This document shows, piece after piece, positions 1,990 through 41,800 of a stretch of 64,000 bases of DNA (position 1 is its first letter; every line of letters starts with the position of its first letter). The stretch lies in assembly GCA_029582155.1 (NCBI GenBank), contig CM055901.1, forward strand, positions 27,106,152 to 27,170,151. The letters are read 5' to 3'. A program made the translations under genes and the position numbers. A model generated the notes under the pieces. It saw only the letters and a program-made list of their open reading frames with translations, was not told the DNA's origin and did not search any database. The stretch is from Panopea generosa (Eukaryota > Mollusca > Bivalvia > Adapedonta > Hiatellidae).

Positions 1990-2710
1990 AAAAAGAACGA
2001 AATTTGACGGTATGACTTCCTTTACCTTTAAACACGTAAGTCATCATAAGTCAGGATATGTACCGAGAAGAGCTTACTAGACATATATATGTGTATATGT
2101 CATAACAATATTCTAAAATGTTTGATCACGGGTCACAATGACATATTTCAAATTATGTTATACAATGCACTATATTATGAAATAAAAGATGTTCTTTTCT
2201 TTGCTATATAATAAAACAGTTCGCATTACGTTGAGATTTCTAAAGCGTTAATCAATATAACATTGTCCAATAATTAAAATAATGAACAAAAAAAAAACGA
2301 AAACAATTACTTTTAGTGTGTTTTACTTTGTAAATTACTACTAAATACGAGCATTGAAAATACATGCAACTGTTCGCCTACATTGTGTAGAAGTGTGTGA
2401 TATGATGACCGCATTCTTTAACTTCCAACGCGGTTAACGTGTCCTGTGTCACCTCTGTAGCAGTAGTAAGACTGGTCAAGAGTTTTAACTGAATAAAATA
2501 ATTAAATGATAACATATATTTTACATTTATAAAAAATAATGTACAGCTTGTTTTAAAAATACCGCGTGTTCTATTTTCGTTTTTAAACTTATTCTATTTT
2601 TCATCGAATGTGAAAAAAGTTCATACATTTAAGACAAATCACGTTCGAAGTATATTTTTAAAGAACCAGTACTAAGCATCTAATATAAAGTATCTTGCTT
2701 AAAGATATAA
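1990..2710. other. AT-rich spacer
   Basis: I see no gene or ordered repeat between the two SINE remnants. Confidence 0.5.
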
Positions 2711-2715
2711 CACAA

Positions 2716-2800
2716 AGCCGTGGCGGAGGATCGAACCCACGACCCCCCAGATCCTAGGTCCGATGCTCCCCGCCTGGTATATACGTACCTCCAGTGCTCT
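2716..2800 (-). mobile_element. SINE family B, tRNA-like head only
   Basis: On the minus strand this gives box-B-like ggttcgatcctccgccacgg, the same tRNA-like head and cggc/ccgtggc junction as the family-B copies at 27672 and 62692. The body is absent. Confidence 0.6.
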
Positions 2801-2809
2801 CATTCCAGA

Positions 2810-3700
2810 GTCAGTATGGACAGCAGTTATCTCGTCGGCAGTCAACGCAGCTAAGTAACAAGAATGGCCATTGTGCAAAATCAGTTTATGCTAAAATTTA
2901 ATCAAATAAGAACATAAACAAATACTTTCTCTCATTTATGCGAAATAACTAGATTATGGATGGAGGTTTAACAACCAAAGTACTGTTTTTATGCTAGATT
3001 CGCCCTGTGCATTTTATTTATTTATTCAAAACTATTTACTCTCGATCAGTCTTAAAAGTTTATAAAAATATTGTCCAATTTACGCGTGTTTTTTTTTAAA
3101 TTTAATATTTGGTAAAAACAGTTCGCTTTTAGCGTTTACATGCCTGATCTGTAACATTTATCATTACCATACATCTTTATTGTGAGCTTATCATATTTTA
3201 TCAAATGCATGTTTTGTTGCTATAGCAAAAATTACAATATGCATAATTATTTTATTTTAATATTAACATTTTTATCTCGACAATCAAGGAACGTTAACAT
3301 ATCGTATCTAAGAAGTGTATATTTTCCGTTCATATTAAATTTTAAAAACACGGCCATTTATTACATACGTTACCGTTAACAGTTTATTTCATTTACTTTA
3401 AATTATAACTAGTGGGGAAAAAACCTTATTAAATATGTCTAGTATGTTGTCCGGTCATTATTATATACATCATGGTAATTGGACGTTTACGAACTGGCAA
3501 AATTTATAATTTGAAATACAAATACAATATAAAGACTTCTCTAGTTAATTTCTACTTCAATTCATCGTAACAAAATTGTTGTTTAATTAATACTTACGAC
3601 ATGGGGATTATAAATAAAAGAGAAATGTTCGTGCTCTGTAGGCTCCTTTGTCGGTCCTGTATGTGGGGCGTGTGTGTGGTTGGGGTCGTGAGTGTGGTGA
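2810..3700. other. AT-rich spacer
   Basis: Contains only short open frames (for example plus 3182-3379) that show no family features. Confidence 0.5.
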
Positions 3701-4717
3701 TGATGTGGATTCACTGTAGATGCACCCTGGAAAACACAGACAAACAAATATGTCTAACAAGAGTTCACTGTAGTTCCACCCTGGGAAAGACAGAAACATA
3801 AATATGTCTCTATCAATAGTTCACTGTAGTTGCACCCTGGGAAAGACAGAAACATATATGTCTAACAATAGTTCAATGTAGTTCCACCCTGGGAAAAACA
3901 GACAAACAAATATATCTTACAAGAGTTCACTGTAGTTCCACCATAGGATAGACTAAAACAAATATGTCTAATATGAGTTCACTGTAGTTGCACCCAAGGA
4001 TAGAGTAAAATACATATGTCTTACAATAGTTCACTGTGGTTCCACCCTGGGATAGACTAAAACAAATATGTCTAACAAGAATTCACTGTAGTTCCAACCT
4101 GGGATAAACTAAAACAAATATGTCTGACAATAGTTCACTGTAGTTCCACACTAGGATAGAGTAAAATAAATATGTCTGACAAGAGTTCACTGTAGTTCCA
4201 CCCTAGGATAGAATAAAATACATATGTCTAACAAAACTCACTGTAGTTCCATCCTAGAATAGACTTAAACAAATATGTCTAACAAGAGTTCATTGTAGCT
4301 CCACCCTAGTATAGACTAAAACAAATATGTCTAACAATAGTTCACTCTAATTACACCCTAGAATAGACTAAAACAAATATGTCTTACAAGAGTTCACTGT
4401 AGTTCCACCATAGGATAGACTAAAACAAATATGTCTAACAAGAGTTCACTGTAGTTCCACTCTGAGATAGACTAGAACAATTATGTCTAACAAGAGTTCA
4501 CTGTGGTTCCACCCTGGGATAGACTAAAACAAATATGTCTAACAATAGTTCATTGTAGTTCCACCTTAGGATTGAGTAAAATACATATGTCTAACAAGAG
4601 TTCACTGTGGTTCCACCCTGGGATAGATTAAAACAAATATGTCTTACAAGAGTTCACTGTAGTTCCACCATATGATAGAATAAAATAAACATGTCTAACA
4701 AGAGTTCACTATAGTTG

Positions 4718-4798
4718 CCTGTATTAAGCAACAACCTGTCTTAAAAGGCCACTTTTGCCTCTTCCTTGGCTGGCTGCTTAAGACAGGTTTGACTGTAT
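4718..4798 (+). mobile_element. MITE-derived segment, copy 1 inside 52-bp array
   Basis: The segment runs from cctgtattaagcaacaacct to cttaagacaggtttgactgt and replaces part of the 52-bp unit. Its right end matches the terminal repeat of the complete element at 29311-29494. Confidence 0.75.
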
Positions 4799-5547
4799 GT
4801 CTAACTTAAGTTCACTGAAGTTGCACCCTAGGATAGACTAAAACAAATATGTCTAACAAGAGTTCACTGTAGTTTCACCCAAGGATAGAGTAATTTACAT
4901 ATGTCTAACAGGAATTTACTGTAGTTCCATCCTAGAATAGACTTAAACAAATATGTCTAACAAGAGTTCACTGTAGCACCACCCTAGTATAGACTAAAAC
5001 AAATATGTCTAACAATAGTTCACTCTAGTTCCATCCTGGGATAGACTAAAACAATTATGTCTAACAAAAGTTCACTGTAGCTCCACCCAAGTATATACTA
5101 AAACAAATATGTCTAACAATTCACTCTAGTTCCACCCTAGGATAGACTAAAACAAATATGTCTAACAAGAGTTCTCTGTAGTTCCACCATAAGATAGACT
5201 AAAACAAATATGTCTAACAAGAGTTCACTGTAGTTGCACCCAAGGATAGAGTAAAATACATATGTCTAACAATAGTTCACTGTGGTTCCCCCCTAGGATA
5301 GACTAAAACAAATATGTCTAACAAGAGCTCACTGTGGTTCCACCCTGGGATAGACTAAAACAAATATGTCTAACAAGAGTTCATTGTAGTTCCAACCTAG
5401 GATTGAGTCAAATACATATGTCTAACAGGAGTTCACTGTGGTTCCACCCTTGGATAGATTAAAACAAATATGTCTAACAAGAGTTCACTGTAGTTCCACC
5501 CTAGGATAGAGTAAAATAAGCATGTCTAACAAGAGTTCACTATAGTT

Positions 5548-5766: not shown

Positions 5767-8700
5767 TAAACACACATAAAAGGCTAACATAAACACAAAT
5801 AAGAGGCTAACAAAAACACATATAAAAGGCTAACATAAAACACATAAGAGGCTAACATGGACACACATAAGAGGCTAACATGAACACATATAAAAGACTA
5901 ACATAAACACACATAAGAGGCTAACATAAACACACATAAGAAGTTTACATAAAAACACATAAGAGCCTAACATAAACACACATAAGAGGCTAACATAAAC
6001 ACACATAAGAGCCTAACATAAACACACATAAGAGGCTAACATAAACACACATAAGAAGCTAACATAAACACACATAAGAAACTAACATAAACACACATAA
6101 GAGGCTAACATAAACACACAAAAGAGGCTAACATAAACACATATATGAGACTAACATAAACACACATAAGAGACTAACATAAACACACATAAGAGGCTAA
6201 CATAAAGACGCATAAGAAGCTGATATAACACACATAAGAGGCTAACATTTACACACATAAGAGCCTAACATAAACACACATAAGAGCCTAACATAAACAC
6301 ACATAAGAGCCTGACATAAACACACATACGAAGTTGACATTAAAACACATAAGAGGCAAACATAAATACATATAAGAGGCTGACATTAACACACATAAGA
6401 GTATAACATAAACACACATAAGAGGCTGACATAAACACACATATGAGCCTAACATAAACACACATAAGAAGCTGACATAAACACACATAAGAAGCTGACA
6501 TTAACACACATAAAAGGCTAACATCAACACATATAAGAGGCTAACATAAACACACATAATATCCTAACATAAACACACATCAGAATCTAACATAAACACG
6601 CATAAGAGGCTAACATAAACACCCATAAGAAGCTAACATAACCACACATAAGATTCTAACATAACCACCCATAAGAAGCTAACATAAACACACTGAAGAG
6701 GTTAACATAAACACACATATGAAGCTGACATAAACACACATAAGAGGCTGACATAAACACACATAAGAGGCTGACATAAACACGCATAAGAAGCTAACAT
6801 AAACACACATAAAAACCTAACATAAACACACATAAAAACCTGACATAAACACACTAAAGAGGCTAACATAAACACACTGAAGAGGCTAACATAAACACAC
6901 ATAAAAACCTAACATAAACACACATAAAAACCTGACATAAACACACTAAAGAGGCTAACATAAACACACTGAAGAGGCTAACATAAACACACAACAGAAC
7001 CTAACATAAACACACATAAGATGCTAACATAAACACGCATAAGAAGCTAACATAACCACACATAAGATGCTAACATAACCACCCATAAGAAGCTAACATA
7101 AACACACTGAAGAGGCTAACATAAACACACATATGAAGCTGACATAAACACACATAAGAAGCTAACATAAACAACCATAAGAGGCTAACATAAACACACA
7201 TAAGAACCTAACATAAACACACATAAAAACCTAACATAAACACACATAAGAACCTGACATAAACACACTGAAGAGGCTAACATAAACACACTGAAGAGGC
7301 TAACATAAACACACATAAGAGGCTAACATAAAAATTATATAAGAAGCTGACATATACACACAAAAGATGCTGACATAAACACAAATAAGAGGCTGACATA
7401 AACACACATAAGAAGCTAACATAAACAACCATAAGAGTCTAACATAAACACACATAAGAACCTAACATAAACACACATAAGAGGCTTACATAAACAACCA
7501 TAAGTACTAACATAAACACACATAAGAGGCTGACATAAACACACATAAGAACTTAACATAAACACACACAAGAGCATAACATAAACACACACAAGAGGCC
7601 AACATAAACAACCATAAGAGGCTAACATATACACACATAAGAGGCTAACATAAACACACATAAGAACCTAACATAAACACACATAAGAACCTGACATAAA
7701 CACACTTAAGAGGCTAACATAAACACACTGAAGAGGCTAACATAAACACACTGAAGAGGCTAACATAAACACACTGAAGAGGCTAACATAAAAACATATA
7801 AGAAGCTGACATATACACACAAAAGATGCTGACATAAACATACATAAGAGGCTGACATAAACACACATAAGAAGCTGACATAAACACACATAAGAACCTA
7901 ATATAAACACACATAAGAACCTGACATAAACACACTGAAGAGGCTAACATAAACACACTGAAGAGGCTAACATAAACACACTGAAGAGGCTAACATAAAC
8001 ACACATAAGAGGCTAACATAAACACACATAAGAGGCTAACATAAACACACATAAGAGGCTAACATAAACACGCTTAAGAAGCTGACATAAACACACATAA
8101 GAAGCTGACATAAACACACATAAGAACCTGACATAAACACACATAAGAACCTGACATAAACACACTGAAGAGGCTAACATAAACACACTGAAGAGGCTAG
8201 CATAAACACACATAAGAGGCTAACATAAACACGCATAAGAGGCTAACATAAACACACATAAGAACATAACATAAACACACATAAGAACCTGACATAAACA
8301 CACTGAAGAGGCTAACATAGACACACTGAAGAGGCTAACATAAACACACTGAAGAGGCTAACATAAACACACTGAAGAGGCTAACATAAACATACATAAG
8401 AGGCTAACATAAAAACATATAAGAAGCTGACATATACACACAAATGATGCTGACATAAACACACATAAGAGGCTGACATAAACACACATAAGAAGCTGAC
8501 ATAAACACACATAAGAAGCTGACATAAACACACATAAGAAGCTGACATAAACACACATAAGAACCTAACATAAACACACATAAGAATCTAACATAAACAA
8601 ACATAAGAGGCTAACATAAACAACCATAAGAAGCTAACATAAAAACACATAAGAGGCTGACATAAACACACATAAGAACCTAACATAAAGACACACAAGA

Positions 8701-9316
8701 GCATAACATAAACACACACAAGAGGCCAACATAAACAACCATAAGAGGCTAACATAAACACACATAAGAGGCTGACATAAACACAAATAAGAGTGTAACA
8801 TATACACACATAAGAGGCTAACATAAACACACATAAGAGGCTAACATAAACACACATAAGAAGCTAAGATTAACACACATAAGATGCTAACATTTACACA
8901 CATAAAAGGGCTAACATAAACACACATAAGAGGCTGACATAAACACACATAAGAAGCTAACATAAACACACATAAGAGGCTAACATAAACACACATAAGA
9001 ACCTGACATATACACACATAAGAGGCTAACATAAACACACATAAGAGGCTAACATAAACACACATAAGAGGCTAACATAAACACACATAAGAAGCTGACA
9101 TTAACACACATAAGAGACTAACATAAACACACATAAAAGGCTAACATAAACACACTTAAAAGGCTAACATAAACACACATAAGATACTAACATAAACACA
9201 CATAAGAAGCTAATATAAACACACATAAGAACCTGACATAAACACAAATTAGAGGCTAACATAAACAACCATAACAGGCTAACATTAACACACATAAGAG
9301 GCTAACATAAGCACAT
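5767..9316 (+). repeat. 23-bp tandem array, ~150 units
   Basis: The unit is acataaacacacataagagg plus cta. Variants cluster: 'cacactgaagaggctaac', 'aaccataagagg', 'cacgcataag'. On the minus strand three units (69 nt) make a 23-residue repeating frame (MCVYVSLLCVFMLASYVCLC...), seen repeatedly at 6288-9065. This frame exists only because 23 is coprime to 3 and the unit lacks stops on that strand; no single frame is longer than 89 codons. Confidence 0.96.
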
Positions 9317-9319
9317 TTA

Positions 9320-9976
9320 AAGTGTGAATATAAATACGTGTATAAATGCACAATTAGTAAACGAAGCTTCACAAATACAAATAAATAATTATATGATATA
9401 CACTAGTATAATTCCTGACTTTCTTGTTTTGTTTTTGGTTAAGCGTTTTATTGTAACTCAGATACGACATTTAATACTGTTACCAAACATTGTAAACAGT
9501 TAAACGTAATGGAAAAGTATTGTGTTACCTGTGATAAAGTAAAACAGAGACAACCCACTGCAACATAGATAAACACATTCATGGTTAGAAAATGGTGAAC
9601 AGACCGTCTAAAACTCTCGAGGTGAACTATGTCATAAACATTAAAAACTTTGCTTAAATACTGTCATTTAAATCGTGAACGTTTCCGTTTTTAAACTAGA
9701 TAAAAACTTTTCAAATCGTGCAGCATAACACCACCTGTGTGGATCCCAGTAATAGTTTACTTAGTCTACCAATCTGTCACATGGCCTCATCAGTGACCTG
9801 CAATTTTCGGGACTATATCGTACAAACGTGACTTAAAAGTTCATTTAGATACCACCAGTGTCCAATAGACGAACAATGTACCGTTTGACCTTACTGTCAC
9901 CATTTTCAAATTCCGCAGATAAAACATTGCTATTGGCTATTCATAAAAATACAACCTTAATGAAAATGCTCGAATA
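9320..9976. other. Spacer before putative exon
   Basis: No repeat or coding signature recognised. Confidence 0.45.
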
Positions 9977-11441: not shown

Positions 11442-11495
11442 ATGGATACGTTTTCTGCTACCGTAGCAGCGTGCCTATGTTTGTTTTTAAGCCAG
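11442..11495 (+). CDS. Signal-peptide exon of BRICHOS-like gene
   Basis: Eighteen codons from ATG: MDTFSATVAACLCLFLSQ, then donor CAG|GTAACT. The hydrophobic core ATVAACLCLFL followed by SQ-AAA from exon 2 is a typical secretion signal with a likely cleavage near AAA. This start is chosen because the next phase-0 exon continues the signal region. Confidence 0.75.
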
Positions 11496-14400
11496 GTAAC
11501 TCATTATTACTAATTTCAACTTATTTATTAGAAACTTGTTTTAGTTATGAAAGTTTAACTACAAAGTAAAATCGACTTATGCAGATCGTGTTATCTAAAG
11601 GGACACACGGGACGATTTTTGTTTATGTTTACTTGTTAAGCCAAACTTCAGATCAACCAGCTTGACATCTTAATGACAGCGTATCATCTGAAACTTATTA
11701 TTGTATAAATAAAAACAATAGTGTTCTAACCTAAGTAGTGTCTTACCAGTTATACAAATATAAGAAAACACTGCTTTGAAAATGCGTATTACTATTTCCT
11801 TCTATAAAAATTGCTATTTTATATCACCCAAAAACATCTGAAACTTATTGTAAACCTTGTGTCATGGATAGCAATATCTGTTTGGATGACTTAAAATAAT
11901 TAATCTGAGTTGTGCCCTTTTCCAAATCAGAAACGTTTTTAAAGAACTGTGTAAATGACGTGGAAGTCGAATTCGTTTAAAGTTATTTGATGATGAGACA
12001 TTTTGTTACGAAAAATAGCAACATTTTAATTTTCACAGTCATGGCTCTATATTCTAGATATTCTAAATTTGCTGTGACAATTTGTTTATATATATTTTAA
12101 ACAAAGCTTCATTCCGAACTACGTCATAAGCATTATCAGCGAAGTAATAAAACTTAAAAAGTCATGATCCAAATAACATTGCTAAAATGATAATACACCG
12201 TTAATTGCAAATGACAGTGGCTGACTAAGTTTTATAATATGGTGATATTGGGGAACATTGGCAAATAAGCAGACAGATTTACAGCGCGCCTACTCATAAT
12301 ACAAGGGAAGCATATAAGACTATATAACTCACCAATTCAATAGAAATGATTTAACTTGAAAGCATCCCTTTCAGTTAACATTTAAGTATTTAATTGTGAT
12401 AGTAGTAGATTAAAGAGGATCTTACATGAGTGCTAATGTTTTATTGAATTTATTATACGAGTAAGAAAACATATATTATACGAGGCTCTGTCGAGCATTA
12501 TATCATTTTTCCCAACGAGTTTGATAATTTCAACAATAAATGTAAGATTCGCTTCGTCAAATCACTTGGAAAAGTTTACATTCACCATTTATATAACATA
12601 TCTTCTCTTAGACTATAAGGGATGATAAAAAAATCGGGCATATTTGTTTCCGTGATTCATCGTTTGACGTACCAAGACAAATCGACGTCTTTTCTATACT
12701 CAGACAAGTATATAATCGGCAGGTTACGTACGCACTGTCGTGATCGTGATAACGAAATGTCGTGATCGTGATACGGCATAGCTTTTCCGTGTTCCGGCAT
12801 AGACAACCAAGATGGCGACAGCGATATCAACAAAAAGGTACGTCTCTTTTTCAATATGTATTTTGCATTCACTAAAGCAGTAGTTATAATTGGTATGGCT
12901 TTTTACTGAAGGGAACTAGCTATATTGTTGATTGCATATGCGTACAGATCTGGATTCCTTTTAACAAAACAGAATATCAGCGATAAATGTGTTTCTATGA
13001 TGGCGTTATTTTTCTATCGAGACAACCACCTGATTTTGGTCATTTTCTCATCCACCACGATTTCTTTTCAAATATATATATTTGTTTTTTCTTTGTGGAG
13101 TACACGGCATAGACACCGTGAAACGACGTGTACTTTCTGGAAAATAAGCACAATATTTGGATACGACATGGACTTTATTCAAGAAAAAGGATATGGTGCA
13201 GACAAGTTTTCTTTGTTTATATATATGATTATCTGAAACTATCAATTCAATTTTACAGCATTACTTTTCAGATATACACATAACATTTGCCTAATTAATT
13301 AATTGATGAGTTTTACAAATTGATCTATATATAGTTTTTGAACGGATGCCACAGTGATAACATTATATTAAAAAAACAAAATCAAGCACTTTTATGAACA
13401 CACAACAGATACGCGTTTGTCATATTTGTAGGCTGACTGTGCCTTTTTGACACGTTTTCTTTGTTTATACATTTGGTTACCTGAAACTATCAATTCAATT
13501 TTACAGCATTACTTATCAGATATTCACAGAACATTTGCCTATTCAATGTACGAAAAGCATACACGAATCTAATGATTTGATCGAGGAATTTAGAAAAATG
13601 GTTCTTAAAGTAGCTGCAGAAATGTAAAAAAAAAATAGTAATTTAAGAACCTGGATAAATATGCACGGACAGATTGAAAATGGCGATTTACCATTTGGTA
13701 ATAGTGCATTCCAACTATTCATGGACGTGTGCCGCTTCTACAATGCAATAATACATCAGGTAAAGCGATTTTAGCGCATTGGATATCGTCGTTTCCGTGG
13801 GAAATGGTTGAAGTTCACGTATGAACCAAAACACTCGGGTTAAATTTTGGCAAAGGAGTGTGAAAAAGGAAATTCCATTCCATCTGAATGTGCTATTAAA
13901 TTTGCTTTAAGAGAAATCATCATCTGAAAACGTAAGTAAAAGTTTGAAGCGCCAGTTCCTGCTTGACTTATAAGATTTTCTTTTGATGCCTCTTTGCTCA
14001 CATTCATTTTCCTGAAACACCGTATACGTCTACTCAAGCACAACACTATGTGTAAAAGATGCTGTCTCATTGTTTCTTGTCGTTTCTCCAAACTTTTAAT
14101 TGAAATATCATTCCATGATGTTTCTTGCACGAACAGTGTCGCATCTTCTGTATAGCGTGTTTCTTTATAAAAGTCTTCTCTTCGTTCAGATAATTTTGGG
14201 GAAAGTTCATAACCCAAACATCAATGTCACCTTCTTTTCCACTAGTCGAAGCATTTATCTTCTTCCCATCTAAAAAAGTGTATACGTTTTCAAAGAAGAT
14301 GACTTCTCCGACATTGCATCCCGTAAACAATGAATGAAACCAGGTATTAATTTCAACTGCTGAAACAGACTCAAGTTTTCTTGAAATAACATTCTTGTTG

Positions 14401-17400
14401 GTAAAGCAAAATTAATAGTACCTTCAGATGGAATGGATTTCCCTTTTCAAAGTCCTTTGTCAAAATGTTACCCAAGTGTTTTGTTCTACTCATGAACTTC
14501 AACCATTTCCTATGTATTTAAAACCTGATGTATTATCGAATCAATACACGTCCATGAATAGTTGGAATGCAATATGACCAAATGAAAAATCGCCACTTTC
14601 AACCAGTCTGATCGATCCAAGTTCTTAAATGACTATTATTTTCCATTTTTACAGTTACTTTAGTAACCATTTTTTTCAGTTCTTTGACCAAATCATTAGA
14701 TTTGTATATGATGTCCACATGCTCATGCGTACACTTGTCAGCAACAACAGACTACAAGGTTTGTTTTCGAGGCGTTGTATTTGTTCGTTTCTTGAACAAT
14801 GGATTTTGAAAAAATGCATCGTCATCATTCAGACCAAGAAACATGTTTTGCACAGACTCTTAGAAACACATTCAATGATGTCATTTTTTCTAATGTGTAT
14901 GTTCTATTACAATATACAGGCACCACGTTTTCTCATCTACTAGTAAATATTGGTTAGTGGTTATTTTTTGCTGTGGAAGAATTCCAAAGTTTTGAGTAAC
15001 ACATCTTGACTGCTCCGTTTGGGCATTGAACAATCTATGCTTTAACTTTAATACACTTGAATCGTGATGTGCGACGAGATGATCAACACAGTCTTGAAGA
15101 CAGTTTGTTTAAAACCCGCCGTAATAGCACTGATTATCCATAGTTTATTTTCTGGAGAAAAAAAAAACATACCGTTAATTTACGACTTTTTGTGTTGCAT
15201 TTATATGTTTTGTATATTAAAAAAGGCATAGTCAACCTACAAATATGACAAACGCGTATTTGTTGTGTGTTCATAAAAGTGCTTGATTTTGTTTTTGTTT
15301 TCAATATAATGTTATCACTGTGGCAACAATTCAAAAACTATATATAGATCAATCTGTAATACTGATCAATTAATTAATAAGGCAAACGTTGTGTATATCT
15401 GAAAAGTAATGCTGTAAAATTGAATTAATAGTTTCAGGTAGCCAAATGTATAAACAAAGAAAACGTATCTGCACCGTGTCCTTTTCTTGAATAAAGTATA
15501 TGCCGTATCCAAATATGGCACTTATATTCCGGAAAGTACATGCCGTTTCGCGGTGTCTATGCCGTGTGCTGCACAAAGAGAAAATAACCAATTTTGAATA
15601 GATAGAGTATTTTATATTTAATTTATCCGGTCTGTGCTTTACAGGGTAACAGTAAGGTATTTACTTTTCATTTATTCGGGTTTATATTTGAAAAGAAATC
15701 GTGGTGGATGAGAAAATGATCAAAATCAGGTGGTTCTCTCGATAAAAAAATACTGCCATCATAGAAACACATTTATCGCTGATTTTATGTTTTGTTCAAG
15801 GGAATCATAAACTGTACGCATATGCAATCAATATAATAGCTAGTTTCCTCCGGTACACAGCCATACCAATTATTATTACTGCTTTGGTAAACGCAAAATA
15901 CAGATTGAAAATGATACGTCCCTTTTTGTTGATATCGCTGTCGCCATCTTTGTTGTCTATGCCGGAACACGGAAAAGCTATGCCGTATCACGATCACGAC
16001 AGTGGTACGAGAGCCGAGTTATACTGAAAACACCGAACGATGAATCGGAAGTGACATTACACTACGTTAGTATCAGAAAAATGCCATGGATTAGTTATAC
16101 TCTTGCACTGTAAAGTATGTGATAAATTTATATATGTGTTCTATATAAAATAATGTTTAGGATTTCCGCTTCAAAAATATATTCCACATTGAAAAGATTT
16201 TTAAAGCAGGTATGTATCCCGACATGCAAATGCACAATAACTGGTAAGTTGACCAGCTTTTCTATTTAAAAGTGACACCCTAAGATTTAATTTTAAAAAA
16301 TAAGCATATAAATATATACAGCTGTTAAAACCTTTTATAAGTCACTTTTTTATACCAGTGATGCCAGCATTTGTTCTACTTATCTGCAGCAATAAATCAC
16401 AGCAACTATGGACCATTTTTAAAGTATTTCAAACAAATTTACACAGGGCGTTTTTAAGCGCAAGAATCGTGGCATAAAGGGGGCGCAACTGTGAAGTAGA
16501 GACGATACTGTGTCACATGTTTGGCTTTAAGTGTTACCTGTATGTCTTTCTCAGGCTGCCGCTACATTGAATCCACACCAGTCACAAGAACAAACTCACA
16601 ATCACGTGTACCGTGCAAATGACGATATCGCATTACCAGTAGAAAACGGCTCATTTTACTATGAAGTAAGTACAATGCATGATGATGTCGCAGTACAAAT
16701 AGAAAACGGCTCATTTTACTATGAAGTAAGTACGGTAAATGATGACGTCGCAGTACCAATAGAAAACGGTTCATTTTACTATGAAGTAAGTACGATAAAT
16801 GATGACGTCGCAGTACAAATAGAAAATGACTCATTTTACTATGAAGTAAATACGGTAAATGATGACGCTGCAGTACAAATAGAAAATAGCTCATTTTACT
16901 ATGAAGTAAGTACGATAAATGGTGACGTTGCAGTACAAGTAGAAAACCGCTCATTTTACTATGAAGTAAGTACGATAAATGATGACGTCTCAGTATCAAT
17001 GGAAAACGGTTCATTTAACTAAAAAGTAAGTACGATAAATGATGATGTCGTAGAACCAATAGAAAACCAATAAAATTAATTTTAGTCTGTGGATCCATTT
17101 TCGGAAAGCGTCACGGAATGAACTGGTTTACGGCAGAATCAGGAGCCTGCCGTGACCCATATCTACGACCAATGAGATTTTTTTTAATTTAAGAAAGAGA
17201 AAGAAGTCACATGGGGCAAGGTCTGGGGAGTAAGGGGTGTGTGGTACTGTAACTTTCTCAGACTTCAAACGTCTTTCTTAGTACTCTTTCAGTTTTTTCA
17301 AGTTAAACATCACGATAGTGCATTCAAGTCGCAGTATTACCCTTGTTTACCGTTACCTGTATTGCAAAACATTCAGTAGAGAAGAAAATATCATAAATAA

Positions 17401-20400
17401 TATTCTTTATACTCAAGGTCCGTTTGGCAATGACTGGCCTTCTGCCATGTTTGGTAGACCATATTTAGTTCCCAACCTTTCGCACTGGTGCAAATTCCGT
17501 ATTCAGGTTTCGTCACCAGTGACAAATTGCAAATTGCTCGTTAGATAGTTACTTTATTACTTTATTTTATTTTATTTTTTTTTTTATTTTATTTTATTTT
17601 ATTGCATTCATTATCAGTACCATATAAAAAGAGACGATTGTCAGGCAGTATGTGAAATGTTATCATAATGACAGATGACAGATTATTATGGGATCGGAAT
17701 ACCTTGTATACAATATATTTAGAACATACATACATACATAAATAGACCACGTTTCTGACATGATTGCAATGGATCAAGTAGGTGTTCTATTTGATGTTCT
17801 ATTTAATGTTCTATTTGATGTTCTATTTAATTAAAAAGACAGTGTAAACTTCGGTATAAAAGGACTGACTTGGCTTCTGTTGGTGACACTGACTCTTTGA
17901 CAATTAACGTGTTAGCTTGTTTTACAGCTGTGTGTGTGTGTTTGGTGTTTTGTGAGGTATGAATTCAGATTAAAGAAGTTATATATAAAAATTGTCAATA
18001 CAGTATCAAAATTGAAATAACAATATCTAACAAGATGATTTTTTTTTAATATAAAACGAACTGTTATATTGTTTGTTTGTTATACTTTTGACATTTTCTT
18101 CCCTAGAGTTCAACTACGCCGGAACCCAAGGAACACGAAGCGTTCACATTTAATTATGTCCCAAATACCGTAAGTATTTCATTGTCAGTTCTTGATGTCG
18201 TATGCTGTTTAGCATCCCTTCAACAATTTTATCAGTCATATCGCGACGGTGTCTACTTGAGACAGTATTCTGAGCGCTGTCACACTGGAGTATCATGCTG
18301 CAGACACATAGTATGATACCCAGTCACATTATACTAACACCGGGGCAGCTTGGGAACTTGATATTTAGTGGTTTATACGAGTAAATGATATTATATTCAT
18401 TCAGGTCACTTTAATTTGATATTTGTAAGTTGATTTTTGTGTGATGTTAAAACGCATGTCTGTATGATGCGTTTATTTACTTCTTCGCGTATATTATCAA
18501 TGTCATTAGTTCTAAACAAATAAATTTAAATTGTTTAGTATTTACCGTTCGTTCTTAGTACTACTTAAATAATTGTTCAGAACAGGTTATGGTTAATCTA
18601 GTATATTATGGTTTATAGATATAAGAAAGATATAGTCTGTCGACAATTTTTAGATATATTTTATCATTGAAACAAATTTGTCTTCTCTTGTATGAGATAA
18701 TCTTAATAACTTTTTAGGGTTTAAATATGTATTTCTTGGTCATGGAGTTGAAACTCTAAATTGTTTTTATCGAACCTTTAACTTATACAAAGGTTTGACA
18801 GTATCTTATCTTGCAATGCACTATTAAATGATTCAAGCAGGCAGTAATTTATAAACAATATATTCCTTTAATCTGCACCCATATTTGTCAAATGTAAATG
18901 TACAGAAAGTTGCTATGAGTAAACTAACGACACATAGTCTTGATGTAAAAAAAAGGGGGGTAGATTGAAGCAACAGATCACGCTTTTCAAGATATGTGAG
19001 TTGTCGAGGATGAGTATCATTTTTACTTGAATGTCGTTTATTCGAATACTTAATACCTATACATTTTAAACAGTATAATTTTATTAACCCTATTTTGTTT
19101 AGGAGCGTTTCAATTATTGGGTGTGGGGTGTGGGGTGTGTGTGTGTGAGTATGTGTGTGAGTATAAGGATGTATGAAAAAAGTATATGCTGGCCCCCCTT
19201 ACCCCCCTAATCCCCCTACTACCCCATTCCATACGTCTATGGTAAGAAACAAGTTCATTACATATACATGTACAAAGCGTTTAAACTCAAAACGAGTCTT
19301 TATCTATGATAACCTTATGCTCCGAAAGATCCAAGGACTACCAAAGTCAGTGTGGTGAAAACACGTGAAAAACAAAACTTTACAGCCACATTAAACTTCC
19401 GAAATGCACAATTTTTGATAATAACAAAAACGATTGTAATTAAATGTGTTTATAGTATTGCTAAAACCATCTTAGACCCCTTAGTGGCTGTTTTTTAAAA
19501 AGAGGGAAAATAAACGAGTTCGATCGAATGACTCGATTGCTTTCCGGCTTACTCCGCCAATGTTCGGAAATTCACATATCAAGTTAATGCGCACATTATC
19601 CAGATTCTCAGATTCGACAAAGAAGATATAAAAAATAGAGATACATCATTTTATGATCATCATAACATTACAATGGTAGAAGATAAGACAACTTTACTCT
19701 CTGAATATTTTTATTACACAGTTGGGGCTTTATGAAGTGTTAAATATTTAAGTGACGCACCAGTTTATTTTTATAATAAGCGAAATACAGTGGTAGTGTG
19801 CCGATTAAAACCGTTAGATAAGAGATACATTAACAAGATTAGAAAGGTTATGGCTTGACTGACATTAGGCATCGACAGTGGCTTTTCTTGTAATATTGAT
19901 GTCTGCAATAAAACTGTATCGAGTGTAGTAAGCATTATATTATTTATACGCACTAGAAATAATGAGTACCAAATACTAGTTTGGTCTTGTAACTCTTGCT
20001 CAGGATCCACCCTTGCATATACACTTTATACTATCGCACGCGCTGTTACGTCACGATCCATTTATTGAGGGGCTACCAAAGAGTGTTTGTTTATTACATT
20101 TATTAGAAAAGTAATTTTAGTTTTAATTTTATATGAACGGTTCGTCGTTTACGTGCAATAAATTAATTTGTGGGTTCCAGTTCATTAATACACTGTGGGG
20201 AATAAAAGGGTTGTTCTGAAAAACTATCTAACCGCAAGAGTTTATCTAATTTCAAACCGCATCCCCTACAGTTCCCCATACTATGTTTCTCTCACGACGC
20301 GTCTCCGAACAAGCTTCGTAACTCCCCGTTTTCTACCGAAGGTGTTTATCGAAAAGAGACAAACATTAATTTGTAAGCAAAACCCGTTCTTAATTATGTA

Positions 20401-23400: not shown

Positions 23401-24588
23401 ATTGTGTTGAAGCCTTTTTACGATACAGCACCTCTTCTGTTAACATCTAAGCTTGTCCCTCTTGTTTTCATAGCATTCGAACATGTGTTGTTTGTAAAAT
23501 GCCAACGGTTCCAGATTTATTTTTTCTTCAGCAAAAAATGGTATTGCACATTTCTAAGCTGTGTTACGTCGTTACGTTAAGTACGAACGATACGGTGAGG
23601 GTCCATACCGACTCTGGATTGAGAGACTTAGAGGTATGTACTTGTTATGTATTGTTTACCACCACCTTGTTAAAACTGAATGAATAATTAATGTATAACA
23701 TTATGAATGAATGAATGAATGAATGAATGAATGAATGAATGAATGAATGAATGAATGAATGGATGATTGAATGAATGAATGAATAAATTAATTAATAAAG
23801 GAATGAATGAATGTTTAAATGAATGAATGAATGAATGAATGAATGAATGAATGAATGAATGAATGAATGAATGAATCATCTAATGAATTAATGAATTAAT
23901 GGATGAATTGATGTATAACTTAACTGATAAATGAATGAATGAATGAATGAATGAATGAATGAATGAATGAATGAATGAATGAATGAATGAATGAATGAAT
24001 GAATGAATTAATGAATGGATGGATGGATGGATGGATGGATGGATGGATGGATGGATGGATGGATGGATGAATGAATGAATGAATGAATTAATTAATTAAT
24101 TAATTAATTAATTAATTAATGAAAGTATTATTTAATCAATGAATGGATGAGTGAATAAATAAATTAATTGATTAAGGAAGGAAGGAAGGAAGGAAGGAAG
24201 GAAGGAAGGAAGGAAGGAAGGAAGGAAGGAAGGAAGGAAGGGGATGGACGTGAATGCCAACTACATGGTCTATCCGCGGTCGTGCATTAACTGAAATATT
24301 CAAATTAGCTACTTCGCTGGAAAAAAAATTGTAAAATTTCGAGAGTACCAGCAATTGTTATACTAGTTTTTATCACATTAAAGGAATGTTATTTACTGGT
24401 CATGACGCTTTATATTATCAGAAAATGAGAGATAAATATACTATAAAAAATCATCAAATAATTTATATTTGCAGCTGATGATCCTTAACAACCTCGATGG
24501 TGCCAAAGAAGTGACGAAGGACATGCTTGACTTGCATGAACGTTCAAAGTGCAGCAAGCACACCGAACACTACTATACACTACCATAA
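11442..24588 (+). CDS. Secreted BRICHOS-like protein with tandem 20-aa repeats, 6 exons
   Basis: Proposed join: 11442-11495, 16555-16665 (or a later donor up to 16965), 18107-18169, 22419-22463, 23532-23633, 24475-24588. Every exon is phase 0 at both ends with GT-AG borders. The protein is 162 to 262 residues depending on how many repeats are spliced in: an 18-residue signal exon, a short linker, 1-6 repeats, then the C-terminal domain. The final ~100 residues fit the BRICHOS pattern: a hydrophobic strand ending in Asp (IIVGNSRFCLND), about 13 residues, CYVV-L, an LMILNNL helix, and a second Cys (SKCSKH) before the end. BRICHOS proteins (proSP-C, ITM2, chondromodulin families) use this domain to chaperone an aggregation-prone segment of their own precursor. 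The BRICHOS call rests on remembered family pattern, not a search. AATAAA follows at 24633. Confidence 0.7.
11496..12727. other. First intron of BRICHOS-like gene, unique part
   Basis: AT-rich intronic sequence without recognised repeats, up to the inverted-repeat transposon. Confidence 0.5.
12733..16004. mobile_element. 3.3-kb inverted-repeat DNA transposon, 5-bp target duplication GTACG
   Basis: Both ends read CACTGTCGTGATCGTGAT inward and share gatacggcatagcttttccg and onward for more than 1 kb of inverted similarity (left arm about 12733-13925, right arm about 14395-16004). GTACG stands directly outside both ends (12728-12732 and 16005-16009). The left arm has an internal 22-bp duplication of the cgtgatcgtgat motif. 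The arms and centre hold broken protein-like frames on both strands. The termini and 5-bp duplication recall Transib/RAG-type elements, whose ends start CAC(A/T)(A/G)TG, but the seventh base here is C and no transposase core was recognised. Confidence 0.85.
13840..14330 (-). pseudogene. Broken coding remnant at centre of inverted-repeat transposon
   Basis: Two overlapping minus-strand frames: 14330-14067 (GCNVGEVIFFENVYTFLDGK...) and 14217-13840 (LSERREDFYKETRYTEDATL... ending SNFYLRF). They read as one protein interrupted by a frameshift near 14150-14200. A further in-frame-like segment upstream (about 14420-14330, INFALPTRMLFQENLSLFQQ) uses another frame. The family was not recognised. The same element also carries related fragments in its arms, for example FGNSAFQLFMDVCRFYNAII on the plus strand near 13690-13755. 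Confidence 0.45.
16010..16554. other. Intron before repeat exon
   Basis: Unique AT-rich sequence ending in the polypyrimidine tract and acceptor of exon 2. Confidence 0.5.
16555..16965 (+). CDS. Repeat exon of BRICHOS-like gene (variable 3' end)
   Basis: Acceptor TTTCTCAG at 16547-16554 opens phase 0 as AAATLNPHQSQEQTHNHVYR, then 20-residue repeats of the form DDVAVQIENGSFYYEVSTIN. The ending shown is the last donor before the frame closes; donors at 16666, 16726, 16786, 16846 and 16906 would each give a shorter version. The repeats are rich in Tyr, Phe, Val and acidic residues, with an NGS glycosylation sequon in several copies. The seventh unit carries TAA at 17020-17022. Confidence 0.7.
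16621..17070 (+). repeat. 60-bp coding tandem repeat, ~7.5 units
   Basis: Units of exactly 60 bp (20 codons) without length change. They differ mainly by substitutions such as GTACAA/GTACCA and GGC/GAC/AGC at the NGS position. The constant period in phase with the gene contrasts with the ragged noncoding arrays elsewhere in the window. Confidence 0.95.
16666..16971 (+). promoter_or_regulatory. Six in-phase candidate splice donors spaced 60 bp apart
   Basis: TATGAA|GTAAGT occurs at 16666, 16726, 16786, 16906 and 16966, and TATGAA|GTAAAT at 16846. All fall between codons (phase 0), and the next exon at 18107 starts at phase 0, so any of them yields an open protein differing by 20 residues. A seventh, AAAAA|GTAAGT at 17026, lies after the stop codon and cannot give the full protein. 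Confidence 0.6.
17070..18106. other. Intron between repeat exon and exon 3
   Basis: Contains a TTTTA-rich stretch (about 17555-17605), short repeats of 'gatgttctattt' (17786-17832) and a short GT run near 17930. The open frame 17318-17548 has no family features. Confidence 0.5.
18107..18169 (+). CDS. BRICHOS-like gene exon 3
   Basis: Acceptor TTCTTCCCTAG and donor ACC|GTAAGT enclose 21 codons in phase 0: SSTTPEPKEHEAFTFNYVPN then T. EAFTFNYVPNT resembles the repeat segment GSFYYEVST in spacing of aromatics. Sequence on both sides is non-coding AT-rich DNA. Confidence 0.7.
18185..18365 (-). mobile_element. SINE family A, 3' part
   Basis: Carries the family-A body (gactgataaaattgttgaag, tactgtctcaagtagacacc, actccagtgtgacagcg on the minus strand) seen complete at 61070. 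The tRNA-like head is missing. Confidence 0.8.
18370..21035. other. Large intron, mostly unique
   Basis: Holds a GT-rich stretch at 19119-19165 and short open frames (19173-19358, 19771-20010 minus, 20195-20404) with no convincing splice-site pairs or family resemblance. An undetected small exon cannot be excluded. Confidence 0.4.
21041..21193 (+). repeat. 35-bp tandem array, block 1
   Basis: About four units of aaaaacaccacctctagatt / caccggtgtccacgt, one with an internal deletion. Confidence 0.9.
21663..22047 (+). repeat. 35-bp tandem array, block 2
   Basis: About eleven units of the same 35-bp sequence as block 1. The blocks are separated by ~470 bp of unrelated unique sequence, so one array was probably split by an insertion or spread by duplication. 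Confidence 0.9.
22419..22463 (+). CDS. BRICHOS-like gene exon 4 (conserved-Asp strand)
   Basis: Acceptor TTTGTTTTAG and donor GTT|GTGAGT enclose 15 codons, phase 0: IIVGNSRFCLNDCLV. Its alignment with the proSP-C segment ending VVYDY (small-Gly-polar-polar then hydrophobics, then Asp) has the same spacing. It also places Asp about 13 residues before the CY motif of the next exon. This exon was inferred from phase, splice sites and fold pattern; it is the least certain of the six. Confidence 0.55.
22470..23531. other. Intron 4 of BRICHOS-like gene
   Basis: Contains a strong-looking but unusable acceptor (ttcttttttcag at 22744-22755): all frames after it close quickly or need the wrong phase. 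No repeat family recognised. Confidence 0.45.
23532..23633 (+). CDS. BRICHOS-like gene exon 5 (first conserved Cys)
   Basis: Acceptor TTTTTTCTTCAG and donor GAG|GTATGT enclose 34 codons in phase 0: QKMVLHISKLCYVVTLSTND and then TVRVHTDSGLRDLE. KLCYVVTLST resembles DKCYVIPLNT of the ITM2 BRICHOS domain. Confidence 0.72.
23704..24240 (+). repeat. Compound tetranucleotide microsatellite
   Basis: Successive runs: (GAAT)n 23704-23880 with imperfections, (GAAT)n 23930-24008, (ATGG)n 24014-24068, (AATT)n 24086-24120, (GGAA)n 24176-24240. Repeating His/Ser/Phe and Pro/Ser frames on the minus strand are artefacts. Confidence 0.97.
24475..24588 (+). CDS. BRICHOS-like gene last exon with stop
   Basis: Acceptor TATATTTGCAG starts phase 0 LMILNNLDGAKEVTKDMLDL, then HERSKCSKHTEHYYTLP and TAA at 24586-24588. 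The Cys near the end followed by aromatics before a short tail matches the second conserved Cys of BRICHOS (as LC..KETYKL in ITM2B). Confidence 0.72.
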   Translation: MMILNNLDGAKEVTKDMLDLHERSKCSKHTEHYYTLP

Positions 24589-32223: not shown

Positions 32224-35200
32224 CGGTCAAGTTAGCAGAATGGCAGAATAGCAGAATGATTTTTTTTTCATTCTGCCAGTAGAACAGCAGAATAGCAGAA
32301 TAAAAATTGGACTAAAATTAAAGTTGTTTTTTTATCACTTATTTTAGTACAGTTACACACATGAACATACCGGAAGTCTTAAGAAATGTTTTTTTTTTAC
32401 AAACAATCACTACCCGAAAGTTAAAGGGGAACTTTTTCTCATTTCACCAAAAGGAAAATACTCATTTTATCACCGAATTTAGGCGAGTTCAAGTTCATGT
32501 ACCATTTTACACATTTTTTGTTCATACTGTGTTCAGCTAAAATTACAAACGATACTTGTACACGTGCTCAATCCGTTCCAGCAAAATGAAAATAAGAGTT
32601 TTTCATCATTTTACCTTGGATTCGCATTGTAAAACATTTTGCCTGACGTATTTCACTCGCCAACAACTTTATCTAACTTTTTTGTTCATTACTTGATCAG
32701 CGGAAATGATCCGCTGACGAGTTATTCACGAAAAACGGTTCATTTTGCCATACTGCTCATTCCGCGAGAGTAAGAAAAGTGGAAAAAAATGAAAGAATTT
32801 TTTTTTTATCATTGATTTTAGTTCGCTTTCATGCATAAACATGCAGGAAGGTTTAAGAACTGTTGTTTTTTTTTACAAACAATCACTACCCGGAAGTTAA
32901 ATGGGAACTTTTTCTCATTTCACCAAATGGACATTTCTAAATTTTCACGTTCAAACTAACAATTATATGCCGGATTCATTTCTCTGCACCATTTTCCACC
33001 TTCTTGTTCAGTGTCTTAAGCAAAATAGCGATATACTAAAAAAAAATTCATATTTCCAGCAAAACAGCAGAATAGTAAAATGAAATATTTTCATTCTGCC
33101 AGCATAACAGTAGAATAGCAGAATGAAAATTGGACGAAAATTAAAGTTGTTGTTTTATCACTTATTTTAGTACAGTTACACACATGAACATACCGGAAGT
33201 CTTAAGAAATGGGTTTTTTTTTACAAACAATCACTACCCGAAGGTTAAAGGGGAACTTTTTCTCATTTCACCAAAAGGAAAATACTCATTTTATCACCGA
33301 ATTTAACTTCAAACTAACAATTATTAGGCGAGTTCAAGTCCATGTACCATTTTATACATTTTTTGTTCATACTGTGTTCAGCTAAAATTACAAACGATAC
33401 TTGTACACGTGCTCAACCTGTTCCAGCAAAATGAAAATGAGAGTTTTTCATCATTACACCTTGGATTCGCATTGTAAAACATTTTGCCTGACGTATTTCG
33501 CTCGCCAACAACTTTATCTAACTTTTTTGTTCATTACTTGATTAGCGGAAATGATCTGCTGACGAGTTATTCACGAAAAACGTTTCATTTTGCCATACTG
33601 CTCATTCCGCGAGAGTAAGAAAAGTGAAAAAAAATGAAAGAATTTTTTTTATCATTGATTTTAGTTTGCTTTCATGCATAAACATGCAGGAAGGTTTAAG
33701 AACTGTTTGGGTTTTTTTTTTACAAACAATCACTACCCGGAAGTTAAAGGGGAACTTTTTCTCATTTCACCAAATGGAAATTTCTAATTTTTCACGTTCA
33801 AACTAAAAATTATATGCCGGATTCATTTCTCTGCACCATGTTCCACCTTCTTGTTCAGCGTCTTAAGCAAAATAGCGATATACTAAAAAAAAATTCATAT
33901 TTCCAGCAGAACAGCAGAATAGTAAAATGAAATATGTTCATTCTGCCAGCATTACAGCAGAATAGCAGAATGAAAATTGGACTAAAATGAAAGTTGTTTT
34001 TTATTACTTATTTTAGTACAGTTACACACATGAACATACCGGAAGTCTAAAGAAATGGGGGTTTTTTTACAAACAATCACTACCCGGAGGTTAAAGGGGA
34101 ACTTTTTCTCATTTCACCAAAAGGAAATTACTTATTTTATCATCGGTTTTACGTTCAAACTAACAATTATTAGCCGATTTCAACGCCATGTACCATTTTA
34201 CACATTTTCTGTTCATACTGTGTTTAGCTAAAATTACAAACGAAACTTGTACGCGTTCACAACCCATTCCAGCAAAATGAAAATGGGATTGTTTCATCAT
34301 TTCATCTTGGATTCGCATTGTAAAACATTTTGCCTGACGTATTTTGCTAACCAATTACTTTATCTAACTTTTTTGTTCATTACTTGATCAGCGGAAATGA
34401 TCCGCTTACAAGTTATTCACGAAAAACGATTTATTTTGTCAGACTGCTCATTCCGCGAGAGTGAGAAAAGTGGGAAAAAATGAAAGAATTTTTTTTCTAT
34501 CATTGATTTTAGTTCGCTTTCATGCATGAACATGCAGGAAGGTTTAAGAACTGTTTTATTACAAACAATTACTACCTGGAAGTTAAAGGGGAACTTTTGC
34601 TCATTTCACCAAAAGGAAATTTCTCATTTTTCACCGAATTTACGTTCAAACTAACACTTATTTGCCGGGTCCACGTCTGTGAATCATTTAACACATTTTT
34701 GTTCATACTGTCTCCAGCTTAATTTACAAACGAAAGTTGTATACGTGCACAATCCGTTGCAGCAACATAAAAATGTGATTTATTCATCCTTTTACAACGG
34801 ATTCGCATTTTAAAACTTTTGGTCCGATGTATTTATCAACTTATTATTGATCTAACCTTTTTGTTCATTATTTTATCAGTGGAAATAAACCGTTTAAAAG
34901 TTATTCACGAAAAACATTTCATTCATTATTACAATTCTATTGTTAAAGACGCGACGCAAAATCAAATAAAGTCTACGAATCGTGATGTATGGTTGTTTAC
35001 GAGTGTTATATTGACAAAAAAAATTATCACGATAACATTTGACAAAACATATGCAGTACAAAACACACCAGAGACAGATAAACAATTAAATACTTAAGTC
35101 ACTGGTATATCTGGCACAACGTGTTACATTGCTATACTCCAGTACACCTTGTTACATTGCTATTGCAGCATACTGTGTTACATTGGTTTATGTACGGTGT

Positions 35201-37612
35201 CGCAGATATAGCAATGTAAAACAGTGTGTTACAAATAGCAATATAACACCGTATGCTACAATAGCAATGTAACAATGTCTGTTAGATATATCTGCATAAC
35301 ACGGTGTGCCAGATATAGCTATGTAACACAGTGTTCTAGATATCACAATGTTACCCAGTATGCTACACTATCAATATAACGCAATGTACTAGATATATCC
35401 GTGTAACACGTTGTCGCAGATATAGCAATGTAACACAGTAAGCTAGATATAGCCATAAAATACAGTTTGCTAGTTGTAACGATGTAACACAGTGTATCAG
35501 ATGAATCCAATGTACTAGTTATGGCAATACAAATCAGTGAGCATGATATATAAATGTAATACAATGTAATAAATTTAGCAATGTAACACTGTATACTACA
35601 TTAGTAATGTTACACAGTGTGCTAGATATAGTAAAGTAACATGGTGTACCACACATAGAAATGCAACACAGTGTGTTACATAAACCAATGTAACACAGTA
35701 TGCTGCAATAGCAATGTAACAGGGTGTGCTGGAGTATAGCAATGTAACACGGTGTGTCAGATATACCAGTGACTTAATTATTTAATTGTTTATCTGTCTC
35801 TGGTGTGTTTTGTACTGCATATGTTTTGTCAAATGTTATTGTGTTATTTATTTTTGTAAATATAACACTCGCGTCGCGTCTTTAACAATAGAATTGTAAT
35901 AATGAATGAAATGTTTTTCGTGAATAACTTTTAAGCGGTAATTTCCACTGATAAAATAATGAACAAAAAGGTTAGATCAATAAAAAGTTAATAAATACAT
36001 CGGACCAAATGTTTTAAAATGCGAATCCGTTGTGAAAGGATGAATAAATCACATTTTTATGTTGCTGCAACGGATTGTTAGTTTGAAGTTAAATTCGGTG
36101 ATAAAATGAATATTTTCCTTTTTGTGAAATGAGAAAAACTTCCCCTTTAACCTTCGGGTAGTGATTGTTTGTAAAAAAAAATTCTTAAGACTTCCGGTAT
36201 GTTCATGTGTGTAACTGTTCTAAAATAAGTGATAAAAAACAACTTTCATTTTAGTCCAATTTTCATTCTGCTACTCTGCTGTTCTGCTGGAAATATGAAT
36301 TTTTTTTTAGTGTATCGCTATTTTGCTTAAGACACTGAACAAGAAGGTGCAAAATGGTGCAGAGAAATGAATCCGGCATATAATTGTTGGATTGAACGTG
36401 AAAATTAGAAATTTCCATTTAGTGAAATGAGAAAAAGTTCCCCTTTTACTTCCGGGTAGTGATTGTTTGTAAAAAAAAAGAACAGTTCTTAAACCTTCCT
36501 GCATGTTCATGCATGAAAGCGAACTAAAATCAATGATCAAAAAAAAATCTTTTATTTTTTTCCCACTTTTCTCACTCTCGCGGAATGAGCAGTCTGGCAA
36601 AATGAATCGTTTTTCGTGAATAACTCGTCAGCGGATCATTTCCGCTGATCAAGTTATTAACAAAAAAGTTAGATAAAGTAGTTGGCGAGCGAAATACGTC
36701 AGGCAAAATGTTTTACAATGCGAATCCAAGGTAAAATGATGAAAAACTCTCATTTTCATTTTGCTGGAACGGGTTGAGCACATGTACAAGTATCGTTTGT
36801 AATTTTAGCTGAACACAGTATGAACAAAAAATGTATAAAATGGTACATGGACTTGAATTAAAATTGGTTATAACATGATGTTTTCCTTTTGGTGAAATGA
36901 GAAAAACTTCCCCTTTAACCTTCGGATAGTGATTGTTTGTAAAAAAAACATTTCTTAAGACTTCCGGTATGTTCATGTGTGTAACTGCACTAAAATAAGT
37001 GATAAAATACAACTTTCATTTCAGTCCAATTTTCATTCTTCCATTTTGCAGTTCTGCTGGCAGAATGAAAAAATTCATTCTGCTATTCTGCTGTTCTGCT
37101 GGCAGAATGAAAAAAAAATCATTCTACTGTTCTGCTGGAAAAATGAAAAAAAAAACTGGTAAATTGCTATTCTGCTAAAGACCCTGAACTAAAAGGTATT
37201 GATTAAATGTTGCAGATATGTGAACCGGTTAATAATTGTAAGTTTGAACTTAAATTCGGTGAAGAAAAAAAGAGAGAATTTTCCTTTCGGTGAATTGATA
37301 AAAAGTTTTCCTTTAATTTCCGGGTGCTGGTTGCTTGTAAAAAAACATATCTTAAGAATAACGATGTGTTACTGCATGTAAATGCACTAGAATAAGTGAT
37401 AAAATACCAACACCATTTTGTCTAATTTTCATGCTGCTATTTTTCTGTTCTGCTGGCAGAATGAAAATATTTCATTCTGCTGTTCTGCTATTTTGCTGGC
37501 AGAATGAAAAAAAAAATTGTGCTATTCTGCTGGCAGAATGAAAAAAAATCATTCCGCTGTTCTGCTGGCAGAATGAAAAAAAATTCATTCTGCTATTCTG
37601 CTAATTTTACCG
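32224..37612. mobile_element. Giant palindromic (foldback-like) element, ~5.4 kb
   Basis: The ends are inverted: left tcggtcaagttagcagaatg and right, read inward, tcggtaaaattagcagaata. The left arm (to ~35205) contains alternating A units (near 32355, 33178, 34025: acacatgaacataccggaag) and B units (near 32830, 33673, 34523: gcatraacatgcaggaagg). The right arm (35680-37612) carries the same units inverted, fewer in number. The 'gcagaatagcagaatgaaa' blocks lie at each unit junction. Frames inside are short and not gene-like. CCAATAC occurs outside both ends as a possible target duplication, offset by a few bases on the left. Confidence 0.8.
34820..36075. repeat. Core of the palindrome with 27-30-bp 'agcaatgtaacac' repeats in the loop
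   Basis: 34820-35205 and 35680-36075 are near-exact inverted copies (for example aacacaccagagacagataa versus its complement at about 35787-35812). The ~470-bp centre is built of irregular units agcaatgtaacacagtgtgc/tagatat, which occur in both orientations toward the edges. Confidence 0.85.
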
Positions 37613-41629: not shown

Positions 41630-41669
<40 letters not shown>

Positions 41670-41759
41670 ACATGGTATGTTACTGGATGGTATATATATA
41701 TGTTGTACATGGTATGTTACTTTATATTATATAGATATTTTGTACATGTTATGTTATCT

Positions 41760-41800
<41 letters not shown>

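Follow-up and report, generated by a model that had tools for sequence, protein, structure and literature searches.

A splice-donor minisatellite at an exon edge in Panopea generosa that may give in-frame isoforms of a putatively secreted protein

Can a tandem repeat that carries a splice donor in each of its units act as a source of protein isoforms? The question is raised by a 64,000-nt stretch of the Panopea generosa genome (1.47 Gb, 39 contigs), CM055901.1:27,106,152-27,170,151 of the forward strand, hereafter the window. Here a 60-bp array, called with Tandem Repeats Finder, covers the boundary between exon 2 and intron 2 of a small gene on the plus strand. This gene was named gene B, and its divergent paralog on the minus strand was named gene A. 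It seems somewhat probable to us that gene B would be spliced mainly at the first donor of the array with some use of the later ones, which would give several isoforms.

The array (16617..17067, plus strand) comprised about 7.5 copies with 87% matches. A donor-like site was present at all seven unit boundaries from 16666 to 17026, GTAAGT in six cases and GTAAAT in one. Units 1 to 6 closed with TATGAA followed by the donor hexamer, which was GTAAGT after units 1, 2, 3, 5, and 6 and GTAAAT after unit 4. The phase-0 frame was open from the acceptor at 16555 to an in-frame TAA in unit 7 (17020..17022), and its translation read VYRANDDIALPVENGSFYYE, five units like VSTINDDVAVQIENGSFYYE, a seventh unit closed by the stop, and a degenerate eighth. 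Since the unit is 20 codons without a stop in the exon frame, donors one to six are joinable in frame to the next exon at 18107. The predicted proteins have 147 amino acids (aa) and one repeat from donor 1 (16666..16671), 167 aa and two repeats from donor 2 (16726..16731), and 247 aa and six repeats from donor 6 (16966..16971). By arithmetic, three repeats and 187 aa would come from donor 3 (16786..16791), four and 207 aa from the weak GTAAAT of donor 4 (16846..16851), and five and 227 aa from donor 5 (16906..16911). The motif and its coordinates, as given in an initial annotation of this DNA, hold, and so do its claims that all six donors and the exon at 18107 are in phase 0 and that each donor gives an intact protein: the forms with one, two, and six repeats were built, and the rest follow from the open added units.

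The seventh GTAAGT (17026..17031) lies 3′ of the stop, and if it were used, or if splicing did not occur at all, the protein would lack the C-terminal part encoded by exons 3-5. An AATAAA at 17069..17074, separated from the stop by 46 nt, could serve an unspliced form as its polyadenylation signal. Exon 2 could then be the last exon, with the TAA at 17020 and polyadenylation after this AATAAA giving a secreted repeat protein that lacks the C-terminal part. However, the hexamer is common (106 on the plus strand of the window), so that one nearby is not rare, and exons 3 to 5, which are conserved, depend on splicing. We therefore consider such an ending highly improbable.

The gene models of both genes were built from the comparison of the paralogs, gene A having been found on the minus strand by searching the window with the gene B exon 3 peptide. 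Gene B is modeled as a small secreted protein from five coding exons. Exon 1 (11442..11495, MDTFSATVAACLCLFLSQ) was identified as signal-peptide-like from a scan for hydrophobic ATG exons and from its match to gene A exon 1, and it ends in the phase-0 donor CAG/GTAACT. Exon 2 in its shortest, one-repeat form (16555..16665) has 37 codons and phase 0-0, grows by 60 nt with each added repeat, and matches gene A exon 2 in its first 17 residues. Exon 3 (18107..18169, SSTTPEPKEHEAFTFNYVPNT, phase 0-0) follows a pyrimidine-rich tract that ends in AG directly 5′ of 18107, and has a GTAAGT donor at 18170. Exon 4 (23532..23633, 102 nt) has the donor GAG/GTATGT, and exon 5 (24475..24588, 114 nt) includes the stop TAA. 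Gene A has four exons on the minus strand: exon 1 (9529..9582, MNVFIYVAVGCLCFTLSQ, donor CAG/GTAACA), exon 2 (3598..3726, 129 nt, donor GTC/GTAAGT), which corresponds to gene B exons 2 and 3 in one uninterrupted piece, exon 3 (2789..2890, 102 nt), the counterpart of gene B exon 4, and exon 4 (2378..2488, 111 nt including the stop TAG), the counterpart of gene B exon 5. The two genes are arranged head to head with start codons 1.86 kb apart, and all introns in both models are in phase 0.

The first exons of both genes are hydrophobic ATG exons of 54 nt ending in CAG/GTAAC. They were 50% identical in a 24-residue match that continued past the exon into intron sequence (E 1.7e-8 for a 200-base target); restricted to the 18 residues of the exon itself, the identity was 44%, with E 0.15 in a search of 304 kb. 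Against the same sequence, the matches of gene B exons 3, 4, and 5 had E-values of 0.004, 2.5e-7, and 9e-6. Exon sizes were paired between the genes (54/54, 102/102, and 114/111 nt for B/A), the stops were at matching places, and the proteins, 131 aa for A and 147 aa for B with one repeat, were 42% identical overall. Although some of the single-exon matches were weak alone, the gene model is firm, because order, phase, size, and splice sites combine.

The downstream exons came from a scan of acceptor-led frames in the 304 kb. A strict scan (252 by 535 candidates) returned two pairs, neither of which was retained as an exon. A looser one (1537 by 2300 candidates) left 23 rows after a position filter, and the pairs retained, A 2890/B 23532 and A 2488/B 24475, were colinear with and nearest to both genes. 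About ten other pairs, some with stronger E-values (e.g., -109220/52909, relative to the window), belonged to a single duplicated segment elsewhere. A possible third gene copy near position -4008 (E 0.29) was dropped since an open exon of suitable size was absent, and no clear further paralog was found in the 304 kb among the best 8 to 14 matches per query.

The aligned exons (exon 1, 18 codons of exon 3, exon 4, and most of exon 5, with gene B exon 2 excluded) differed at a proportion of 0.60 of synonymous sites (pS) and 0.36 of nonsynonymous sites (pN; Fisher P 0.0003 on rounded counts). The last 18 codons of exon 3 alone gave P 0.015 for the same contrast. The synonymous divergence of A and B was estimated at 1.2 per site and the nonsynonymous divergence (dN) at 0.49. 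This comparison shows purifying selection on the aligned exons outside gene B exon 2. It also bears on the possibility that at least one of the genes is dead or silent and that the donors have no role today. Minisatellites and interspersed repeats do crowd both genes, but both reading frames are intact despite that synonymous divergence and pN is well below pS, and we judge the chance of dead or silent genes to be very small.

The two sides of the predicted splice junction are found together in the paralog. The gene A exon at 3726-3598 reads GASTVNPHHHHTHDPNHTHAPHTGPTKEPTEHEHFSFIYNPHV, and it matched first the opening residues of gene B exon 2 (AAATLNPH...) and then gene B exon 3 (...EPKEHEAFTFNYVPNT) in the same order. 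Because gene A holds both sides in one exon, where the corresponding residues are contiguous, joining of an array donor (16665+60n) to 18107 in phase 0 is predicted, and the joining proposed in the initial annotation gains support. The intron that is present in B and lacking in A may itself be young. Other copies of gene B intron 2 were not found in the 304 kb at E 1e-4, and a repeat origin of the intron is unsupported.

How did the array come to carry a donor in every unit? The likeness of the first copy to the repeat unit starts at 16617, and the 11 bases before it did not match GTAAGTACGAT. This would fit a unit made of 49 nt of exon and 11 nt of intron, and it suggests that 16666 lay at the ancestral exon boundary and was the original donor. 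In the proposed history, a 60-bp segment straddling that boundary, with 49 nt from the 3′ end of exon 2 and 11 nt from the 5′ end of intron 2 including the donor, would have expanded to about 7.5 copies. The window shows no enrichment of GTAAGT (plus strand 19, of which 6 in the array, against about 20 expected from base composition and 15.6 at equal bases), and its copies in the array stem from duplication. An exact 20-base pattern of the array occurred five times in the 1.47-Gb genome, always in the array, and a reversed control gave no occurrence. The shared phase of the donors counts as one coincidence and not six, because the period of 60 bp is a multiple of three.

The variation among the units was compared with random placement. 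The 19 substitutions in units 2-6 comprised 12 nonsynonymous, 7 synonymous, and 0 stop changes, against 12.3, 6.1, and 0.66 expected. Because this fits random placement, the open frame across the repeat is weak evidence of coding, and frame openness was rejected as an argument. The array alone proves neither coding nor donor use, and the case rests on where the array lies: it sits at the edge of an exon backed by an independent paralog, which lifts the finding above chance. The donor hexamer in units 2-6 may be merely a Val-Ser codon pair. The same neutral-looking variation suits a simpler account, in which splicing is confined to donor 16666, the intron holds units 2 to 7.5 as a minisatellite that is open by chance, and a single isoform of 147 aa is made. 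It is in keeping with this account that protein A is without any 20-residue repeat in the A/B alignment. However, donors 2, 3, 5, and 6 share the 9-mer of donor 1, and we regard exclusive use of the first donor as rather unlikely.

Splice sites were scored with a simple weight matrix and ranked among 8037 GT and 6124 AG sites. Donors 1, 2, 3, 5, and 6 shared the identical 9-mer GAA/GTAAGT and fell in the top 1.2% of GT sites. The site at 16846 was much weaker (top 13.7%). The acceptors at 16555 and 18107 were in the top 0.8% and top 3.5% of AG sites, respectively.

Several observations weigh against the use of several donors. The weight matrix rested on generic splice-site frequencies and not on ones specific to the species. 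The array donor has no G at position -1 and pairs less strongly with U1 (energy -5.1) than the gene B exon 1 donor does (-8.0). The donor at 17026, past the stop, scored nearly as high as the best ones (top 1.4% of GT sites), and the acceptors at 17293, 17458, and 17928 in intron 2 outscored 18107. Gene A has no intron between the counterparts of gene B exons 2 and 3, and the intron is thus not conserved across the pair. In units 2-6 selection for coding or for donors was not seen, and the donor 9-mer there had 1 substitution against 2.85 expected, numbers too few to judge. The array variation looks neutral, and neither use of more than one donor nor the repeat-number switch suggested in the initial annotation is supported.

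That annotation also stated that no standard example of this layout was known, and two human genes precede it. In ABCA7, according to the passages of PMC5954066 on this repeat, a 25-bp variable number tandem repeat (VNTR) includes the exon 18 donor and opens with the two bases of the canonical donor, and one unit was found to be kept in a transcript. As in gene B, the array in ABCA7 intron 18 begins at the exon edge and carries the donor within its unit; however, the 25-bp unit as described there is not a multiple of three and its retention shifts the frame, whereas the 60 bp of gene B are 20 open codons including 49 nt of exon. The position of the canonical ABCA7 donor again suits the use of 16666 only. 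For IFI6/6-16, PMC4526556 (citing Turri, 1995) reports in its account of the gene that two downstream repeat units act as splice donor sites and that there are three mRNA species, so that here too minisatellite units carry several donors. Some use of later donors in ABCA7 and IFI6, as far as these accounts go, counts against a first donor used exclusively. A VNTR with new donors is likewise described for the miR-137 host gene, and the passages of PMC6692358 that deal with it do not state that the donors lie in the repeat.

The gene B array is thus a splice-donor minisatellite, of a kind already described in these two human genes. Its unusual parts are the in-frame unit and the arrays at opposite edges in the paralogs; neither an in-frame unit of 60-bp length nor donor and acceptor arrays in paralogs appeared among the open-access literature matches listed. 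The minisatellite of IFI6/6-16 (G1P3), which Turri is said to have described in 1995, reportedly has a unit of 12 bp. In gene B, by comparison, the inserted segment amounts to 20 residues, and the array of its paralog lies at an acceptor. For donor choice in gene B, the usual outcome would be use of 16666 plus some of the next donors. Proteins with mainly one to three repeats are expected, because of the donor use reported for ABCA7 and IFI6, and longer forms would be rarer with a tail to six. The array, its donors and their phases, the gene model, and the homology of both junction sides can be read from the DNA itself; the ancestral boundary, splicing from several donors, the share of each, and any role that the repeat number may have are inferences.

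A second array lies in gene A at the opposite exon edge. It is a 52-bp array (3742..5547, minus strand) of 34.7 copies, and its unit combines the acceptor of gene A exon 2 with the opening bases of that exon. Thirty-three units including the true exon start were in register, with AG at the splice position in 24 of the 33, and all 32 upstream units met a phase-0 stop before the exon, so this array cannot yield intact isoforms. Exon edges were thus amplified in both paralogs, the acceptor edge in gene A and the donor edge in gene B. The gene A array shows that splice-edge arrays can arise without a coding purpose. Its inability to code through to the exon suits a gene B that uses only its first donor, and it fits equally a tendency shared by the two genes. 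We entertain, tentatively and with some doubt, the further idea that exon edges independently seeded minisatellites in the two paralogs, that the in-frame donors of gene B are really used, and that copy number sets the secreted isoforms.

What kind of protein would carry the repeats? The signal-peptide-like exon 1 supports secretion of proteins A and B, as proposed at the outset for gene B, solely through its hydrophobicity. The linker is rich in His (A) or in Gln and His (B), and both proteins carry a pair of cysteines spaced 49 residues apart. The pair, C72 and C121 in protein A, was invariant in the two-row A/B alignment, which is not a specific feature. By eye the proteins are reminiscent of BRICHOS proteins and may be candidates for that family. 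Secreted BRICHOS proteins likewise have a signal peptide, a linker, a two-cysteine region, and a CY motif. A and B as two single sequences had no match to any Pfam family up to E 5, a search in which a distant member could be missed, and a sequence search of the PDB with the A/B alignment gave nothing up to E 10.

The reading of the array itself matched the Pfam family Bflower_3 (6-fold beta flower, PF21786) at E 4e-8 and 33.7 bits, under the cut-off of 34, and had six matches up to E 1 in a PDB sequence search, the best at E 0.11. This weak match, just short of the cut-off, and the frame open through six units would suit an array that is constitutive coding sequence, with only the last usable donor, 16966, in use and one long six-repeat protein as the product. 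SRSF1 favours intron-proximal and hnRNP A1 intron-distal donors according to the part of PMC5585400 that treats them, and given these effects a bias toward the 3′-most donor is possible. However, the donor closest to the intron is actually 17026, past the stop, and purifying selection on the units was not seen. AlphaFold2 folded the array reading into a beta-solenoid, which was discounted, such solenoids of repeats being reported as an artefact in the relevant passages of PMC11795689. A constitutive six-repeat protein is accordingly held to be improbable.

Mixed use of the gene B donors, if it occurs, would mean that a change in repeat number alters, in a single step, the range of proteins made while the gene stays intact. 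Individuals could then differ in their isoform ladders, and the array would act as a heritable source of isoforms that mutates fast. The donors themselves form a natural set of near-identical sites, which, with five identical 9-mers, the weak 16846, and one site past the stop, offers a test of how the spliceosome chooses among equal sites. The paralog pair is also material for asking if splice-site edges tend to seed minisatellites.

Wider searches of the locus gave few matches. In the three plus-strand frames of about 1-30 kb (one frame without 14800-16530), Pfam returned no gene domain, only the array matches and one match at E 0.25. Eight selected open reading frames (ORFs) on both strands gave two weak Pfam matches, RuBisCO_large_N (E 0.017) and CD1375-like (E 0.17). 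Among viral contigs one stretch fitted a pattern, and no relative was confirmed.

Other repeats were observed in and around both genes. Intron 1 of gene B contains a long imperfect inverted repeat (12758-16001) with arms at about 12758-13909 and 14402-16001 and about 490 bp between them. Pieces of the arms were 74-90% identical; no further copy was found in the 304 kb at E 1e-8, and four ORFs gave no convincing Pfam match. Just 3′ of gene B exon 3, an interspersed repeat (18188-18344) has six more copies, 85-88% identical, in the 304 kb. In intron 1 of gene A, a 23-bp minisatellite of about 154 copies (5767-9315) adjoins the 52-bp array. Farther along the window, 32300-37015 holds several copies of a repeated segment in both orientations at a spacing of about 0.85 kb, and large minisatellites with 37-bp and 54-bp units occupy 39640-42748 and 45090-47694. 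A segment of about 1.6 kb (51300-52900) has a diverged copy on the opposite strand at about -107500 to -109200 relative to the window, about 160 kb off.

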